Source: a virus. From it: a stretch of 34,427 nucleotides of DNA. Made by a program: the position numbers and the translations under genes. A model generated the notes under the pieces. The model made no database searches. It was not told where the DNA came from and was given only the letters and a program-made list of their open reading frames with translations. Of the stretch, positions 1,673 to 17,215 are shown piece by piece (positions within the stretch are counted from its first letter, which is position 1; each line of letters begins with the position of its first letter). The stretch covers positions 1 to 34,427 of IMG/VR virus record IMGVR_UViG_3300046543_000293. One strand, 5' to 3'.

Positions 1673-1821
1673 ACGCCGCGCGCCGTCGGGGGAATGCCGC
1701 TGCCGCCTGGCAGATGGCAATGGCAAAGAACATCGGCCAGTTAAAGACCAAGGAAGCGAAGCAGATGCAGGCTCACATGCTCTGTGAATCGCTCAAGCGC
1801 ACCATCAGGGGCAAGGCATGA
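1669..1821 (+). CDS. Small basic phage protein, unknown (50 aa)
   Basis: A 50-residue protein rich in Arg, Lys, Ala and Met. It overlaps the preceding stop (ATGA) and ends in an ATGA overlap with the HNH gene, so it is probably translationally coupled. It is helical and positively charged with no recognised domain. The tight overlaps on both sides are the main evidence that it is real. Confidence 0.55.
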   Translation: MNAARRRGNAAAAWQMAMAKNIGQLKTKEAKQMQAHMLCESLKRTIRGKA

Positions 1822-2204
1822 AAGCACCATACAAGAACGTCATGCGCAACAGCGGCCGGAATTTCTCGTACGCGTTTCGCACCTATTTCTACGAGAAGTG
1901 CCGCGGCGCATGCGAATACTGCGGATCGTCGATCGAATCCAAAAGCGATATGAGCATCGACCATATCGTGCCGCGCACGGCAGGCGGAACCCACGAAGTT
2001 TCGAATCTTCGGGCAGCTTGCAGCTCCTGCAACACGTCCAAGGGAAACCGGGACGTCGAATACCTGCGCGCCGTCTTGCGCCTCCGTGCATCGGTTTTGG
2101 ACGGGATCATCACCCCCAATCAACTGCGAATCCTCGAGGAAGTCGGCGCCAGCCTTCCCGTTCCGGGAACGTTCGTGTTTGCATTCGAGCGGGGGCTGTC
2201 GTGA
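1818..2204 (+). CDS. HNH endonuclease
   Basis: A 128-residue protein with a complete HNH fold. It has two zinc-binding pairs (C32-C35 and C68-C71), the catalytic-type Asp-His at 48-49 (IDHIVP), Asn63 and a CNTSKG end to the motif. Such nucleases are common in phage early regions, where they serve in recombination, packaging or mobility. It sits just before the replication genes, so a role in DNA metabolism is reasonable, though a homing role cannot be excluded. ATGA-type overlaps on both sides place it in the early operon. Confidence 0.8.
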   Translation: MKAPYKNVMRNSGRNFSYAFRTYFYEKCRGACEYCGSSIESKSDMSIDHIVPRTAGGTHEVSNLRAACSSCNTSKGNRDVEYLRAVLRLRASVLDGIITPNQLRILEEVGASLPVPGTFVFAFERGLS

Positions 2205-2989
2205 GCATCATCCGCGCGGCGCGGCCGCAATCCCATTTCTACATGTTGAGCAAGTCGATCAGCGAGGATCGACGCCTGTCGTGGGCCGCGCGCGGCTTGC
2301 TCGTATTCCTGCTCGGCAAACCCGACCATTGGGAAGTGTCCGTCGCCAATCTGGTGAACGAGACAGCCGGCAGCCTGCGCGCGGGCGGTCAGACGAAGCG
2401 GGACGGCGTGAAAGCCATCCTCGCCGAACTGATGGCCGCTGGCTACCTGACGCGCAGCGACAAGCCGAAACACAATGCAGACGGCAGTTTCGCAGGGTAT
2501 GACTACATCGTCTCCGAGACGCCGACTGAGCCTGAGCAAGCCTTATCACCATCACCGGATCAGCCGTCGACGGCTCAACCGGCGCCGGTTCAACCGTCGA
2601 CGCCTCATCCGACACAAGCAAGTACTGACTCTAAGAAAGGATTGAAAACCCAAGCAAGGAAGGAACGCCGCGCTCCGCGCGCCGACCTCTCTTTCGCGGA
2701 ATGGATCGAAAACTGCAAAACCGCAGATGAGCGGGCAATCCCTGAAAACGATCCTGTTTTTGAATACGCCGATAAGGCTGGCCTTCCGCTCGACTACATC
2801 GTGCTGCACTGGAAAGAGTTCAAAGAGCGCTACGCCGCGGACGGCAAGCGCTACAAGGATTGGCGCGCGGTCTATCGCAAGTCGGTTCGTGGCAACTGGT
2901 TCCGACTCTGGTTCTTCAATGCTGACGGCATTTGCACGCTGACGACGCAGGGCCAACAGGCCAACCGCATCCACAAGGAGCAAGCATGA
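2201..2989 (+). CDS. Replication protein, helicase-loader type (DnaT/O-like)
   Basis: 262 residues from a GTG at 2201 overlapping the HNH stop; the same frame is open further upstream, but that part overlaps the HNH gene. Residues 1-110 look like a winged helix. A Pro/Thr/Ser/Gln-rich linker follows (about 112-150). The C-terminal segment, about residues 168-245, has the pattern seen in DnaT-like and phage O-like C-termini, including KRYKDWRAVYRKSVRGNWFR. It directly precedes and overlaps dnaB. I infer that it binds the origin through its N-terminus and delivers the helicase through its C-terminus. Confidence 0.7.
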   Translation: MSIIRAARPQSHFYMLSKSISEDRRLSWAARGLLVFLLGKPDHWEVSVANLVNETAGSLRAGGQTKRDGVKAILAELMAAGYLTRSDKPKHNADGSFAGYDYIVSETPTEPEQALSPSPDQPSTAQPAPVQPSTPHPTQASTDSKKGLKTQARKERRAPRADLSFAEWIENCKTADERAIPENDPVFEYADKAGLPLDYIVLHWKEFKERYAADGKRYKDWRAVYRKSVRGNWFRLWFFNADGICTLTTQGQQANRIHKEQA

Positions 2990-4356
2990 GCGCCAACGAC
3001 ATCGAACGCGCAGTCCCGCAGAGCATCGAATCCGAGCAGTCCGTCATTGGCGCCCTGCTGATCGACAACGATTCTGTCGACCGTATTGGCGACCTGCGCG
3101 CGGAGCACTTCTACCGCGCCGACCATCGCGCGATCTTTACCGAAATCCTCGCGCTGATCTCGGGCAGCGTCGGCGCTGACGTGATGACCGTCTTTGAACG
3201 CCTGCAAGCCAAGGGCCGCGCGGCCGACGTGGGCGGGCTGGCGTATCTGAACGACCTGGCGCACAGCACGCCGAGCGCGTCGAACATCGCCCGCTATGCC
3301 GACATCGTGCGCGACCGTGCGCAGAAGCGCGGCCTGCTCGCCCTGTCGCATGAGATTCAGGATTCAGTCGGCACGACGCCGGACAGCGCTGCGGTGCTGA
3401 TCGATCGCGCGTCCTCGAAGCTGGAACGGCTCGGCGAGGCGGTTGTGAAGTCTGAGCCGGTGCGCGCGTCCGACTCGCTGCAGGAATATCTCGACTACCT
3501 TGAGAACCAGATCGACGGCAAGATCAAGCCCGTTCCGACCGGCCTGACAGACTTGGATCACAAGCTCGGAGGCGGCTTCTATGGCGGCGACCTGGTTGTC
3601 GTCGCTGCGCGCCCGTCGATGGGTAAGACGGCATTCTCCCTGACGATCGCCGCCAACGTCGCAGCGACCGATCCGGTGCTGTTCCTGTCGATGGAAATGA
3701 AGAACGTCCAACTGCAGCAGCGCCTTGTGTCGGCAATGGGCGGTATCCCGATGGGCGACCTGCGCGACCCGGCAAAACTCGACAACGAACAATGGTCGCG
3801 CATCACGCACGCCGGCCAGCGCATCAACGAATTGCACCTGTTCCTCGACGATCAGCCGAACCTGACGCTTCTGGAAGTGCGCAACAAGGCGCGCGCGATC
3901 AAGCGTAAGCACGGTCTGTCGATGCTCGTTGTCGACTATCTCGGGCTCATGGCGACCGGGCAGGAAGAACGCCGCGACCTGCAGATTGGCGCGCTGACGA
4001 AGGGGCTGAAGAATTTGGCGAAGGAGCTCGACATTCCTGTCGTCCTGCTCTCGCAGCTCTCGCGCAAATGCGAGGAACGGCCGAACAAGCGCCCGCTTTC
4101 GTCCGACCTGAAGGATTCCGGCGACATCGAAGCCGACGCAGACACGATCCTGTTCCTGTACCGCGACGAGGTCTACAACCCCGATTCGATGGATCGCGGC
4201 GTCTGCGAAGTGATCTGCACGAAGCAGCGCCAGGGCGAAACCGGCATCACCGGCCTTGCATTCATCGGCGAACAGACGCGCTTTGCAGACTTGGCGCACG
4301 GTCGACAGTTCGGCCGCCAGTCGGAACAAAAGACGAAAAATAGGGGCTTCGACTGA
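2986..4356 (+). CDS. dnaB: Replicative DNA helicase DnaB
   Basis: 456 residues, full length for the family. The N-terminal DnaB domain spans about 8-110. The RecA-like motor domain holds Walker A ARPSMGKT (208-215), Walker B LVVDYLG (314-320) and the conserved VVLLSQLSR (352-360). It unwinds DNA 5' to 3' at the replication fork as a hexameric ring. The ATG at 2986 overlaps the loader stop, and the start matches the typical DnaB N-terminus (PQSIESEQSVIGALL). It is the last gene of its operon. Owning a helicase suggests replication largely independent of host loading. Confidence 0.95.
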   Translation: MSANDIERAVPQSIESEQSVIGALLIDNDSVDRIGDLRAEHFYRADHRAIFTEILALISGSVGADVMTVFERLQAKGRAADVGGLAYLNDLAHSTPSASNIARYADIVRDRAQKRGLLALSHEIQDSVGTTPDSAAVLIDRASSKLERLGEAVVKSEPVRASDSLQEYLDYLENQIDGKIKPVPTGLTDLDHKLGGGFYGGDLVVVAARPSMGKTAFSLTIAANVAATDPVLFLSMEMKNVQLQQRLVSAMGGIPMGDLRDPAKLDNEQWSRITHAGQRINELHLFLDDQPNLTLLEVRNKARAIKRKHGLSMLVVDYLGLMATGQEERRDLQIGALTKGLKNLAKELDIPVVLLSQLSRKCEERPNKRPLSSDLKDSGDIEADADTILFLYRDEVYNPDSMDRGVCEVICTKQRQGETGITGLAFIGEQTRFADLAHGRQFGRQSEQKTKNRGFD

Positions 4357-4780: not shown

Positions 4781-5067
4781 ACATGTCCCTCATCCTCGAT
4801 TTCCTCGAAACGCAACCTGAAGGCGCGACGCCTCACGAGATCGCCGATCACGTCGACGGCAACGCGCGCAGCGTGCGCGACTCCCTCGGCCGTCTGGAAA
4901 GCAAGGGGCTCGTCAAGAACCTCGGCGCCACGCGCATGGGCCTGCACTCGCGCTGGATCAGCACGCGCGAGAAGGCGCAGAGCGTCTATCACGGTGACGA
5001 GACGCTTGCAGCGATGCAGGCAGCCTGCCGCGCGCGGCTTATGGGCGAACTGGCGGAGGCAGCATGA
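4777..5067 (+). CDS. Winged-helix DNA-binding protein (96 aa)
   Basis: 96 residues starting at an ATG overlapping the previous stop. Residues 4-50 form a clear winged helix, with the recognition part HEIADHVDGNARSVRDSLGR and a following beta-wing. It is likely a small transcriptional regulator or DNA-binding accessory protein of the early operon; its target is unknown. The stop overlaps the methyltransferase start. Winged-helix proteins of this sort also occur at 11025 and 11824. Confidence 0.65.
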   Translation: MNMSLILDFLETQPEGATPHEIADHVDGNARSVRDSLGRLESKGLVKNLGATRMGLHSRWISTREKAQSVYHGDETLAAMQAACRARLMGELAEAA

Positions 5068-5816
5068 GCGATTGGCTCTCTAAATGCCATCTTGGCGACT
5101 GCCGTGCATTGATGGCAAAAATGCCCGAAGGAATCGCCGACGCATGCGTTACCGACCCGCCCTATGGCGACACAAGCCTCGAGTGGGATAGCCGGTGCAC
5201 AGGATGGATTGACGGCGTTGCGCGCGTCCTGAAGCCCGCCTCGAGCATTTGGGTATTCGGCAGTATGCGATTTATCGCAACGTTATTCGATGACATGGAA
5301 GCGGCCGGCTTCAAATACGCGCAAGACATCGTTTGGCAGAAACAAAACGGCACCGGATTTCATGCTGACCGTTTCCGGCGCGTTCACGAGCACGCGGTTC
5401 AGTTCTATCGCGGCGCATGGGGTGATGTGTTCAAAGACCCGCAATACACCAACGACGCGACCGCCAAGACCGTGCGCCGCAAGACGCGCCCGACGCACAC
5501 CGGCAACATTGACGCCGGCCATTACGTCAGCGAGGACGGCGGACCGCGCCTGCAGCGTAGCGTGATCGACGTCTCAAACGAGCACGGCAAGGCCGTTCAT
5601 CCGACGCAGAAGCCGCTTGGAATCATTGCCCCGCTGATTAGCTATTCCGTGCCGGTCGGAGGCATCGTGCTCGACCCATTCATGGGGAGCGGCTCGACAG
5701 GTATTGCAGCGGAAACACTCGGCCGCCGGTTCATCGGCTGCGAACTGAATCCAGAGTATCAAACGCTACTGAGCGACCGCCAGCGGCAAGGCGATCTTAT
5801 GTTGGAGGTTGCATGA
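5064..5816 (+). CDS. DNA adenine-N6 or cytosine-N4 methyltransferase (beta class)
   Basis: 250 residues. The catalytic DPPY is at 31-34 and the AdoMet-binding motif LDPFMGSGST at 203-212. With DPPY first and the target-recognition region between, the order is that of beta-class enzymes. HPTQKP (179-184) and GCELNPEY (225-232) are typical. It methylates an exocyclic amino group of adenine or cytosine at a sequence I cannot predict. No restriction partner is present, so it is an orphan enzyme. It may shield phage DNA from host restriction or tune phage gene expression. Confidence 0.9.
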   Translation: MSDWLSKCHLGDCRALMAKMPEGIADACVTDPPYGDTSLEWDSRCTGWIDGVARVLKPASSIWVFGSMRFIATLFDDMEAAGFKYAQDIVWQKQNGTGFHADRFRRVHEHAVQFYRGAWGDVFKDPQYTNDATAKTVRRKTRPTHTGNIDAGHYVSEDGGPRLQRSVIDVSNEHGKAVHPTQKPLGIIAPLISYSVPVGGIVLDPFMGSGSTGIAAETLGRRFIGCELNPEYQTLLSDRQRQGDLMLEVA

Positions 5817-13620: not shown

Positions 13621-14132
13621 TGGCCGGGAACAAGAAGCCGAACCGCAAGCCGCGCAAGGTGATCGAGCCGAAGAATCACGTCATGTATTTGTATGACGCC
13701 GATGCGCCGATGAAGGGCGAAGAACGGCTGGAAGTGCTGACGTCGGTTCACATGGCCGCCCTCGCCCTTTCCCGCGGCGAAGGAACCAAGAACGAATGGG
13801 ACGTAATTGTTATCGCGATGAACGTGGCGATCGTCCTGTGCGAGACGGCGGGCAATCGTGAGATCGGCCTGCGCGCGCTCTACGACACGCAGAACGCCAT
13901 GATCGACCTGTGCGAGCGCTTCCAAGCGCGCGGCAAGTTCATTCTGACCGGCGACGAACTCACAGCGATGAATGGCGGGATTCACGTATTCGAAGCGCTG
14001 GTTGCCACCGTGAGCCGTCGCCAGTACACGCGGGCATGCGCCGAATACACGAAGCGCCTCGACGCGGGAAAGGCGGTGCAGATCAGGGCCGGCAGGCAGA
14101 CAGAACGGTTCGCGCTGCGGAAGGCGGCCTAG
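13620..14132 (+). CDS. Phage hypothetical protein, helical (170 aa)
   Basis: 170 residues. A basic N-terminus (NKKPNRKPRKVIEPKNH) precedes a long helical region with ERLEVLTSVHMAALALSRGE and a regular pattern to the end. I recall similar proteins in Burkholderia and Ralstonia phages, all uncharacterised. Last gene before the partition operon. No catalytic motif seen. Confidence 0.6.
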   Translation: MAGNKKPNRKPRKVIEPKNHVMYLYDADAPMKGEERLEVLTSVHMAALALSRGEGTKNEWDVIVIAMNVAIVLCETAGNREIGLRALYDTQNAMIDLCERFQARGKFILTGDELTAMNGGIHVFEALVATVSRRQYTRACAEYTKRLDAGKAVQIRAGRQTERFALRKAA

Positions 14133-14145
14133 GCGCGCGTCACAG

Positions 14146-14247
14146 CGTATGGGCGTCCGTATGTACGCCCATACGTATATATAAGTATCTGTTGACCTTG
14201 CTGTTTGTGCAGTCTTGTTTTAGTCTATGCGCACAAATACAAACAAG
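14146..14247 (+). promoter_or_regulatory. Control region / candidate centromere before parA
   Basis: The gap holds a perfect 10-bp inverted repeat, CGTATGGGCG (14146-14155) and CGCCCATACG (14166-14175), and a second, CTTGTTT (14214-14220) with AAACAAG (14241-14247). A possible promoter, TTGCTG (14198-14203), 17 bp, TAGTCT (14221-14226), overlaps the second repeat, so its binder could autoregulate the operon. Between lies AT-rich DNA. Type Ib partition sites often lie just here. Confidence 0.5.
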
Positions 14248-14256
14248 GGAGTCGAC

Positions 14257-14907
14257 ATGCTCATAGCCGTCGCCACAGAGAAGGGTGGAGTTGGAAAGAC
14301 CACTATCGCCACAAACCTAGCCGCGTTGCGCGCAACCCATAGGAGAACGGTAAAGCTAATCGACACCGACCGGCAGGAGAGCGCCTATACATGGGGCATG
14401 CTGCGCGTCGAGAGCGAGATTGCGCCTGTTATCCGCCTGTCAAAACTGACGGGAAACATCTTTAGCGAACTAACCGCCGAGCGCGAATCCATCGACACGG
14501 TAATCGTCGACGCAGGCGGCAGGGACAGCCCAGAACTCAGAAGTGCCATTGCGGCGTGCGACGTGCTCGTGATGCCGATTAAGCCAGGGCAATTCGATAC
14601 ATGGTCGCTCGGAAAGATGGCGCAGCTCGTGCAGGCGGCGAGAAGCACAGGCAGAACCTTTCGCGCCGTTGCCGTACTCAATGGGATTTCAGCCAATCCG
14701 CAAAGCAAAGAGGCGTCGGAAATGCGCGCCGTCCTGCGTGAAATGTCTGACTATTTCTCAACGTTTGACGGCGCCATTGTCGACCGGGTTGCGTTCCGCA
14801 ATGCCGCAAGGGAAGGGCGGGGCGTCACCGAATTGGATCGGGGCATGTTCGACCAGAAGGCCGCCGACGAACTCTCACAGCTTTACGCGGAGGTGTTCCG
14901 TGACTGA
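14257..14907 (+). CDS. parA: ParA-family partition ATPase (type Ib-like)
   Basis: 216 residues from ATG 14257, behind AAGGGAG. The deviant Walker A is complete (KGGVGKTT, 9-16), with Asp36 and Asp38 in LIDTDRQ and Walker B VIVDAGG (82-88). There is no N-terminal DNA-binding domain, as in type Ib ParA. Such ATPases position low-copy plasmids by ATP-driven nucleoid binding. Codon use (aga, cta, ata, agg) is less GC-biased than in flanking genes, suggesting separate ancestry. The gene overlaps its RHH partner. Its presence points to plasmid-style maintenance of the prophage. Confidence 0.85.
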   Translation: MLIAVATEKGGVGKTTIATNLAALRATHRRTVKLIDTDRQESAYTWGMLRVESEIAPVIRLSKLTGNIFSELTAERESIDTVIVDAGGRDSPELRSAIAACDVLVMPIKPGQFDTWSLGKMAQLVQAARSTGRTFRAVAVLNGISANPQSKEASEMRAVLREMSDYFSTFDGAIVDRVAFRNAAREGRGVTELDRGMFDQKAADELSQLYAEVFRD

Positions 14908-15190
14908 ACGCGCACCACTCAGGCCGCCCGTTGTGAACTTCATCGAATCCGCGCCTGGCGGAGTGCCGCCAAAGGCTGACGAGTCAGCCGGCGAGCCGCC
15001 AGGCACCGCTGCGCGCCCCGCATTCCGAGAGCGCGAGGCAACCCGAAACATGAGTTTGAATGTTCCAAAGAGCCTGTACGAAGACCTGAGAGCCTATATG
15101 AAGCTGACCGACACGCCGATGACTGAAGTTTTGGTTGAGGGCGCGAAAAAGGAGTTGGCTCGTCTGAAGAAGCAATATGGGATTGAATGA
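14900..15190 (+). CDS. Ribbon-helix-helix partition partner (ParB-like)
   Basis: 96 residues from a GTG at 14900 overlapping the parA stop by 8 bases. The first 45 residues are Pro/Gly/Ala-rich and probably flexible; small type Ib partners use such a tail to stimulate ParA. Residues about 50-90 form a ribbon-helix-helix (RNMSLNVPKSLYEDLRAYMK, then TEVLVEGAKKEL). I infer that it binds repeats near the operon and serves as the centromere-binding and autorepressor protein. The stop overlaps the next start. Confidence 0.7.
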   Translation: MTERAPLRPPVVNFIESAPGGVPPKADESAGEPPGTAARPAFREREATRNMSLNVPKSLYEDLRAYMKLTDTPMTEVLVEGAKKELARLKKQYGIE

Positions 15191-15738
15191 TGGCCGATCA
15201 GCCGGAATTGTGGGAGGAATTGAAGGTCGAGAATCACTGGTTCCACGTCGTGCGCGCCATGATCCAGCGCGACAAGATCGCCGAAATGGGTGTGAATGCG
15301 TGGGCGGTGTACTGCGTTCTCAAAAGCTACGCCGCGCTCGATACCGGGAAATCCTATCCGGGGCGCGACGCGATTGCACAGCATGTTGGCGTTTCACTGG
15401 ATACCGTCGACCGGGCTCTCTCAAAACTCGACGAAATGGGGATCGTTGCGCGCAAGCGACTCGGGCGCAGCAATTCGTATGAACTGACGGAGCAAATACC
15501 GATGACGGCTGCCAATGGCGAGATAGCGATGCACGGCGAAGCGAAGTACGTGCCGATGCAGTTTCAACAGGTTCTAGACCAGCTGAAGGCGTTCGCGGCG
15601 AGCGGGAGTATGCAGGGAGGTCTAGAGGTCAAGATCGTCTTAAACGCCAATTTCCTGACCGGCTCGCATGCGACCGTGAACAACTACAATGCGCCGGCCG
15701 TCGTCGGGGTCGAAGTTATCCCCAAGAAGCCGGACTGA
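15187..15738 (+). CDS. HTH protein resembling plasmid replication initiators
   Basis: 183 residues. Residues about 10-100 are a winged helix-turn-helix of the HTH_36 type (YPGRDAIAQHVGVSLDTVDR, then a wing with RKRLGRSNSYEL). This fold occurs in plasmid and phage replication proteins and some regulators. The C-terminal part is Gln- and Asn-rich without a known domain. It follows the partition genes and directly precedes repeats, DnaA boxes and AT-rich DNA, so I infer that it binds this origin-like site. A purely regulatory role is the alternative. Confidence 0.55.
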   Translation: MMADQPELWEELKVENHWFHVVRAMIQRDKIAEMGVNAWAVYCVLKSYAALDTGKSYPGRDAIAQHVGVSLDTVDRALSKLDEMGIVARKRLGRSNSYELTEQIPMTAANGEIAMHGEAKYVPMQFQQVLDQLKAFAASGSMQGGLEVKIVLNANFLTGSHATVNNYNAPAVVGVEVIPKKPD

Positions 15739-15944
15739 GTTATCCCATCTAAAGACTTTAGGATATATAGAATCTATATAGTGCCGCACCCCAGCGGCGT
15801 ATTCGCCTCGATAAGCCGCACGCCAGCGGCGCATCGGAAAACGAAAGGCCGCACGCCAGCGGCTAATGGAATCTTGTCCACAGCCAGTTATCCACAGAAA
15901 CGGTGCGTAACCCTGTGCGCAATTTCCGAGTGATAAAGTCTATT
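15739..15944. other. Candidate plasmid-type replication origin
   Basis: The 206-bp gap contains an AT-rich stretch (15739-15782) with a small palindrome (ATATAGAATCTATAT, 15765-15779), three direct repeats, and two DnaA-box-like sites: TTGTCCACA (15874-15882, one mismatch) and TTATCCACA (15888-15896, exact consensus). Iterons, DnaA boxes and an AT-rich unwinding region next to a Rep-like gene are the standard parts of an iteron plasmid origin. Function is inferred. Confidence 0.55.
15783..15863 (+). repeat. Three iteron-like direct repeats, 32-33 bp apart
   Basis: GCCGCACCCCAGCGGC at 15783-15798, and GCCGCACGCCAGCGGC at 15815-15830 and 15848-15863. Start-to-start distances of 32 and 33 bp are about three helical turns, so the copies face one side of the DNA. 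Each has inner symmetry (GCCGC and GCGGC), so hairpin or dimer binding is possible. They may bind the Rep-like or the RHH protein. Confidence 0.75.
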
Positions 15945-16121
15945 ATGTCAAATCCTGCAAAGATCTTCGTTCGATTGGCGGGCGTTATATCAGTCCTAGC
16001 CATAATCGCGCTGCTGGCGGGGAGCGAGCTCGGGCGAGGAACTTGGCCGATTAGCATTGCTGGCCTGCTCTTGTGGGCGTCGAGCGAATGGGATTGGCGA
16101 AAGAGAGAAAAGAAGAAATGA
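15945..16121 (+). CDS. Small two-span membrane protein coupled to an acyltransferase
   Basis: 58 residues, starting MSNPAKIF. Two hydrophobic spans (about 8-26 and 34-46) are followed by a very basic end (WRKREKKK). The stop overlaps the acyltransferase start (ATGA), so the two are made together. It may help place or partner the acyltransferase in the inner membrane, in the way small membrane proteins accompany phage seroconversion enzymes. No family recognised. Confidence 0.55.
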   Translation: MSNPAKIFVRLAGVISVLAIIALLAGSELGRGTWPISIAGLLLWASSEWDWRKREKKK

Positions 16122-17215
16122 ACAATCGAAATTTCGGGCTCGACGTCGTTCGAATGCTCGCCATCCTGCCGGTTCTCGCTGTCCATTACACAGCGTTCGC
16201 AATCAAGGATGCGCCGCAGCTCGTCTATGTGGCGGGTGATCTCGGCGTCGAAATCTTCTTTGCCCTGAGCGGCTTCCTGATCGGCGGCATCATCCTGCGC
16301 GACTTCGAGCGCGGTTTCTCCTGGCGCGTGGCGCTGAACTTCTACGTGCGCCGCTGGATGCGCACCCTGCCGCTCTACTATGTGTTTTTTGTAGCGTCGG
16401 CATTCGTGACGATCTACGGGCTGACGCTCGACAAGGTATGGTCTGCGGAATGCCTCGCTTACCTGCTATTCCTGCAAAACCTCGCATGGCCAATGCTCGC
16501 GCAGTGGTATCACGAAAGCTGGTCGCTGGCCGTCGAGGAATGGTTCTATCTGATCTTTCCCGCGTTCTTCGCCGTGCTCGTCGGCCTGCGCGCCCGCACG
16601 CGCATTCTCGTGATTGCGTTGACGCTGATCGTCGTGCCGCTCGTGCTGCGCATCTGGACGTTTGATGCGAGCCTGTCATTCGATGACCATGTGCGCCGCA
16701 TCGTCGTGCTGCGACTCGACGCAATCGCTTTTGGCATCCTCGCAATATGGGCGGTGACGACATTCCCGAGCGGGGTGCGTTACTGGAAAAACGTCATTGG
16801 CCTGGCGGGCGCGGCCGGCGTCGTGCTGACGATCGCAATTCTGATGGGTCGCGTCGACGTCGGCGTTTTCTTCCTCCGCACATTCTCCTTCACGCTGGCA
16901 TCCGCATCATTTGCCGCGGTCGTCGTGTGGGCGTACTTCCATTCATGGGAGCACCTTGAGGCGGGAGGCGAATCCGACATAATCCGCTGGTTCAGCACGC
17001 GGTCCTATGCGCTCTATCTGTGTCACGGGAGCGTGGTGCGCACGATGCTGCATCACGGCTGGTTCGCAAAGGCGCCGCTCGTCTCGTTCCTGATCTTCTC
17101 GTCGGCGACGCTTCTAATCGCGGAGGCGGCGCACCGCCTGGTCGAGCGACCGGCAATGAGTCGCCGGCCGCGCGAACTGCATACGACGGTCAGCGGACGC
17201 GTCGCGCTTGAATAA
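16118..17215 (+). CDS. Acyltransferase 3 family protein (OafA-like), likely lysogenic conversion
   Basis: 365 residues, an inner-membrane protein with about ten hydrophobic spans. Family marks are His23 in span 1 (LAVHYTAF), SGFLIGG (51-57), the Arg motif FYVRRWMRTLPLYY (75-88) and SWSLAVEEWFYLIFP. Members move acyl, usually acetyl, groups onto exported carbohydrates such as O-antigen. In temperate phages such genes change the lipopolysaccharide of the lysogen and so block related phages. Here it lies on the plus strand against the late genes and its end overlaps the next gene by 26 bp. The target sugar is unknown. Confidence 0.85.
   Translation: MNNRNFGLDVVRMLAILPVLAVHYTAFAIKDAPQLVYVAGDLGVEIFFALSGFLIGGIILRDFERGFSWRVALNFYVRRWMRTLPLYYVFFVASAFVTIYGLTLDKVWSAECLAYLLFLQNLAWPMLAQWYHESWSLAVEEWFYLIFPAFFAVLVGLRARTRILVIALTLIVVPLVLRIWTFDASLSFDDHVRRIVVLRLDAIAFGILAIWAVTTFPSGVRYWKNVIGLAGAAGVVLTIAILMGRVDVGVFFLRTFSFTLASASFAAVVVWAYFHSWEHLEAGGESDIIRWFSTRSYALYLCHGSVVRTMLHHGWFAKAPLVSFLIFSSATLLIAEAAHRLVERPAMSRRPRELHTTVSGRVALE

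Follow-up and report, generated by a model that had tools for sequence, protein, structure and literature searches.

A probable plasmid-state replication origin beside an HTH_36-class gene in a phage genome

Phage-plasmids are common, and most of their origins are unmapped. The window analysed here is a whole IMG/VR virus record of 34,427 bp. It raises the question of whether the repeats, DnaA boxes and AT-rich DNA at 15739-15896 form a replication origin and, if so, in which state of the phage that origin works. From sequence comparison, we believe with good confidence that this segment is the plasmid-state origin of a low-copy phage-plasmid and is driven by an HTH_36-class initiator. This reading is best supported because the cis-elements are invariant, the repeats are linked to the HTH protein (Rep) and not to ParA/RHH, the same architecture occurs on a true plasmid, pA29BJ2, and the tested integrase, recombinase and transposase families and a protelomerase were not found. 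An earlier note on this DNA had proposed a plasmid origin, possibly that of the lysogenic state, and the same evidence supports it.

Anatomy and constraint of the site

The features of the site and its neighbours are as follows.
15187-15738, plus strand: HTH_36 winged-helix protein, proposed replication initiator (Rep); HTH_36 32.7 bits; phrog_28562
15739-15782, strand not given: AT-rich element, candidate DNA unwinding element; weakest 40-mer; 4/44 bases variable in relatives
15783-15798, plus strand: dyad iteron 1, 16 bp, GCCGC-N4-CAGCGGC
15815-15830, plus strand: dyad iteron 2, 16 bp, GCCGC-N4-CAGCGGC
15848-15863, plus strand: dyad iteron 3, 16 bp, GCCGC-N4-CAGCGGC
15874-15882, plus strand: DnaA box TTGTCCACA, invariant among relatives
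15888-15896, plus strand: DnaA box TTATCCACA, consensus, invariant among relatives
15188-15953, plus strand: Rep and origin block, predicted minimal replicon; 91% by blastn against the related record G003, with the flanks swapped
16118-17215, plus strand: Acyltransferase_3 cargo gene; other sequence there in relatives

The dyads follow one another at a pitch of 32 and then 33 bp, which is three helical turns. The array starts 45 bp past the rep stop codon, and repeated sites thus adjoin the HTH_36 gene, as in HTH_36-class Reps. The AT-rich element sits between the HTH_36 stop codon and dyad 1 and contains two small palindromes (15749-15761 and 15764-15780). Positions 15740-15780 are the thermodynamically least stable 40-mer of the entire window. 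The earlier note had listed the three dyads with their pitch, the two DnaA boxes and the AT-rich stretch, and all of its coordinates are correct to the base. Against G004, the same Rep and origin block covers 15195-15900. Past the second DnaA box the sequences of the relatives soon diverge fully because different cargo genes come next; this cargo slot lies directly behind the origin.

Chance alone would yield 0.93 DnaA boxes per window, and the boxes are therefore no proof by themselves. The dyads were scanned for as an array of three 6-N4-6 dyads with like half-sites at a pitch of 31-34 bp. Exactly one site each was found in the window, G003, G004 and the 104-kb plasmid pA29BJ2, and nowhere else in them. 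The same scan of 1.86 Mb of dinucleotide-matched random sequence gave zero sites. The three-dyad array far exceeds chance. A two-dyad pattern matched 16 of approximately 2.9 million viral contigs; 15 of the 16 belong to the phage family of the window, and the remaining match is an unrelated 33-bp tandem duplication. Constraint was compared over seven distinct related sequences. The variable bases were 0/36 in the half-sites and 0/18 in the DnaA boxes, compared with 8/12 in the dyad centres and 13/33 in the spacers (together 21/45). The difference between half-sites plus boxes and centres plus spacers gave a Fisher p of 3e-7; a single run of metagenome accessions supplied most of the relatives, and not every one of them is independent. 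At the DNA level, no named phage or plasmid matched, and no description of the origin of the window was found in the literature.

The HTH protein, the partition cassettes and the repeats

HTH_36 proteins have been published as plasmid Reps (PMC3832669). The domain in the window protein scored 32.7 bits against a Pfam cut-off of 25, so the protein carries the domain of HTH_36-class plasmid Reps; for comparison, the pKL1 Rep scored 34.8 and the pA29BJ2 protein 44.4. Its phrog_28562 match stands for replication initiation proteins, and it also matches the winged-helix profiles GntR, Crp and PaaX. By profile, the protein is as close to transcription regulators as to initiators. The AlphaFold model was poor (pLDDT 51 and 53 with two alignments), and comparison with solved structures gave only weak CodY winged-helix matches. 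Genome contigs were scanned twice for rep without a confirmed relative, so no cellular genome or host was found, and the Burkholderia host of the earlier note is not established.

Upstream of the HTH_36 gene lies a partition cassette.
14146-14175, strand not given: 11-bp perfect inverted repeat CGTATGGGCGT-n8-ACGCCCATACG, candidate centromere/operator, upstream of parA
14257-14907, plus strand: ParA partition ATPase; phrog_164 9e-37; NF041546 below its cut-off
14900-15190, plus strand: small RHH-like protein, presumed ParB partner from position and size

The parA frame has a possible alternative start at 14227. A Pfam search of the small protein gave no match, and its RHH identity is presumed from size, place and analogy; its L022 analogue matches RHH_10/HicB. 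By comparison with type Ib par systems, the repeat at 14146-14175 is a candidate partition centromere or operator.

Two patterns of natural exchange tell which protein the dyads accompany. In the relatives of the window, the HTH protein is 92-98% identical and the dyads are identical in all, while three unrelated partition types occur (ParA 21-38% and RHH 17-24% identical). The swapped ParA/RHH pairs occupy the same slot, with the same upstream gene on one side and the HTH gene on the other. In front of parA, each of the three cassettes has palindromes or short repeats peculiar to it (window 14130-14257; L004, L005, L010 and L011). Contigs L020-L024 present the converse: ParA (83-100%) and RHH (76-97%) are kept, the HTH protein is only 53-62% identical, and the repeats behind its gene switch from TGAACACTT to CGTTACTC..CGTTCGCTA. 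Since the repeats track the HTH protein across both patterns, the dyads go with it and not with ParA/RHH, which argues against a centromere.

The design recurs on the Polaromonas plasmid pA29BJ2 (NZ_MN657148), a non-phage plasmid without recognisable phage structural genes. It has the gene order parA, small gene, HTH_36 gene, as in the window, and its HTH protein is 33% identical to that of the window. Behind the HTH gene are three 16-bp 6-N4-6 dyads (CCCTTA-N4-TAAGGG) at 33 and 32 bp, together with DnaA boxes. However, the half-site letters are unrelated to those of the window, and dyads 2 and 3 have a DnaA box between them. The differing half-sites indicate that the architecture is conserved and that protein and recognition sequence have changed together. 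A Rep_3 search of pA29BJ2 was empty, its annotation names no other Rep, and a Rep domain looked for in ten larger unannotated proteins was not found. Its rep had no match in viral contigs, and no description of its origin was found in the literature.

These comparisons bear on two other readings of the dyads. They could be a partition centromere (parS) that is bound by the RHH protein and serves segregation instead of initiation. The site does end a parA-RHH-HTH operon, and small RHH partition proteins of type Ib par systems bind phased repeats. Nevertheless, we give this reading almost no credence. A type Ib centromere co-varies with its RHH partner, and no such co-variation was seen in the window family or in L020-L024: the dyads are unchanged across three unrelated RHH proteins and change with the HTH protein where RHH is constant. 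Moreover, each cassette has repeats of its own before parA, and centromeres include neither DnaA boxes nor a weak duplex. From these patterns, the RHH protein is not a likely binder of the dyads. It is also highly improbable that the HTH protein regulates transcription, as a repressor or an activator, through the dyads as its operators, with the cargo gene downstream or the par operon as its target, despite the GntR, Crp and PaaX matches and a dyad symmetry that is typical of operators. The dyads follow the HTH stop codon and precede a cargo gene that varies among relatives, they stand with DnaA boxes that do not vary and an AT-rich element that hardly does, and pA29BJ2 retains the layout without another recognised Rep. 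Autoregulation by the HTH protein could coexist with an origin role.

The probable plasmid state and a candidate lytic origin

The record holds virion, packaging and lysis genes (coat, scaffold, portal, head closure and lysis). Those for coat, scaffold, portal and head closure are of a P22-like or podovirus-like type, and the coat is at most 48% identical to named relatives. These genes stand alongside ParA and the Rep/ori block, the combination that marks a phage-plasmid. Phage-plasmids also lack integration machinery, and in eight records, including two closed maps, the tyrosine integrase (PF00589), serine recombinase (PF00239) and rve transposase (PF00665) families were absent. A protelomerase, as in linear plasmid prophages, was looked for and none was found. 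G003 and G004 have exact 127-bp terminal repeats, through which their maps close at 39,564 and 41,266 bp; because circularly permuted virion DNA could also give a closed map, these support but do not prove a plasmid prophage. The earlier note had suggested that GC skew might switch at the site. On the two closed maps there was no informative switch and no origin signature; the detrended extremum, a maximum, lies beside the site in G003 and 7.7 kb off in G004.

Two early genes concern lytic replication.
1784-2989, plus strand: O-like replication initiator, candidate lytic origin inside; internal 15-bp repeats at 2548-2611
2932-4356, plus strand: DnaB-type replicative helicase; TIGR00665, 431 bits

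By its gene content, the O-like gene with internal repeats next to the DnaB gene suggests a separate lytic origin, which fits the expectation of the earlier note that the lytic origin is distinct from the one described here. The 15-bp repeats are CCGTCGACGGCTCA-like, and their place within the O-like gene, with a DnaB gene alongside, is like that in lambda. In G003, the related O-like gene (L042) has internal repeats too, but different ones. A DNA methyltransferase (phrog_67) is encoded in the early region at 5064-5816.

It might be argued that the origin at 15739-15896 serves the lytic cycle, or both states, rather than the plasmid-like lysogen specifically, since the record is that of a phage, with genes for lysis and head, and lysogeny is evidenced directly only by a CI-like repressor ORF and the par genes. 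We regard this as improbable: the O-like and DnaB genes already provide a candidate lytic origin, partition genes are of use only in the plasmid state, and the same module is present on the non-phage plasmid pA29BJ2.

Known replicons and the proposed mechanism

The plasmids pKL1, pAES1, pAES7, pMARC3 and pMOS2 resemble the window in having an HTH_36 initiator with repeated or palindromic sites beside rep (PMC3832669). In the 1.5-kb pKL1, the HTH_36 protein is the sole annotated gene; its oriV is described upstream of rep (PMC3832669), whereas the origin of the window is downstream, and it is without the partition operon to which the rep of the window is linked. The other four have two direct repeats or other layouts, by description (PMC3832669). 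The HTH protein of the window had no significant BLAST match to the pKL1 Rep, and their profile similarity is only winged-helix wide. Thus, the origin of the window differs from those of HTH_36-class Reps in its dyads at three-turn pitch, its downstream position and its link to a partition operon.

The origins of phage P1 and Rep_3 plasmids share Rep-bound repeats, an AT-rich element, DnaA boxes and a partner ParA system with the window. Rep_3 iterons are non-palindromic, about 19-22 bp long and at two-turn pitch. The Rep_3 domain (PF01051) had no match in G000, G003, G004 or pA29BJ2, and G010 matched in the same search. The lack of this domain, and dyads at 32-33 bp pitch instead of direct iterons, ruled out a Rep_3 iteron plasmid. 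The Acinetobacter phage vB_IME_Ab2712 and pRBH2-3 were rejected as counterparts; their gene order is alike, but there is no dyad array behind the HTH gene.

For plasmid prophages that carry ParA, Burkholderia phage KS14 and the cluster A mycobacteriophages are precedents. KS14 has been shown by experiment to be a plasmid prophage (PMC3091744). Its ParA is 36% identical to that of the window, but it differs in its P2-like virion, RepB-like initiator and serine recombinase (PMC3091744), and no HTH_36 gene is annotated behind its ParA. In cluster A mycobacteriophages, repA and parABS replace integration, and parB diversity is tied to incompatibility; these actinobacterial phages differ in an unrelated RepA and in that no repeats were found at RepA origins (PMC7157519).

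We infer the following mechanism from the arrangement of these elements. The HTH_36 protein would bind each of the three dyads, probably as a dimer, and the three-turn spacing would place the dyads on nearly the same face of the DNA. Host DnaA would occupy the two adjacent boxes, and the two proteins together may unwind the AT-rich DNA that separates dyad 1 from the rep stop codon, after which the host or phage DnaB helicase would be loaded. The upstream ParA/RHH pair would segregate the copies through its own site before parA. What is proposed here is the binding and dimerisation of the protein, the opening of the DNA, the control of copy number and, likewise, the plasmid state.

The natural recombination borders delimit the origin unit to about 770 bp, and the origin has a plasmid counterpart in pA29BJ2. 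Such a small replicon would offer a clear case for whether HTH_36 initiators act as dimers on palindromic iterons. Usually, initiator monomers act on direct iterons and dimers on palindromic operators. Dimers of a small winged-helix initiator on three-turn palindromes, as a distinct theta origin class, combined with a fixed rep/ori and swapped unrelated partition cassettes, are a tentative and somewhat doubtful proposal. If true, the distinct class would reverse the usual rule, and the fixed rep and origin with swapped par cassettes would allow the shares of partition and of replication in incompatibility to be told apart in natural isolates. The independent exchange of partition and replication modules is a natural experiment.

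Replication and partition genes are often exchanged between phage-plasmids and plasmids (PMC10879196). The viral contigs L019 and L027-L034 have related ParA genes that adjoin larger initiator-like genes of other kinds; most of these ParA genes are followed by a small gene. The partition cassettes in these contigs pair with differing Rep classes, and the initiator-like gene in the record of L030 is a confirmed Rep_3.
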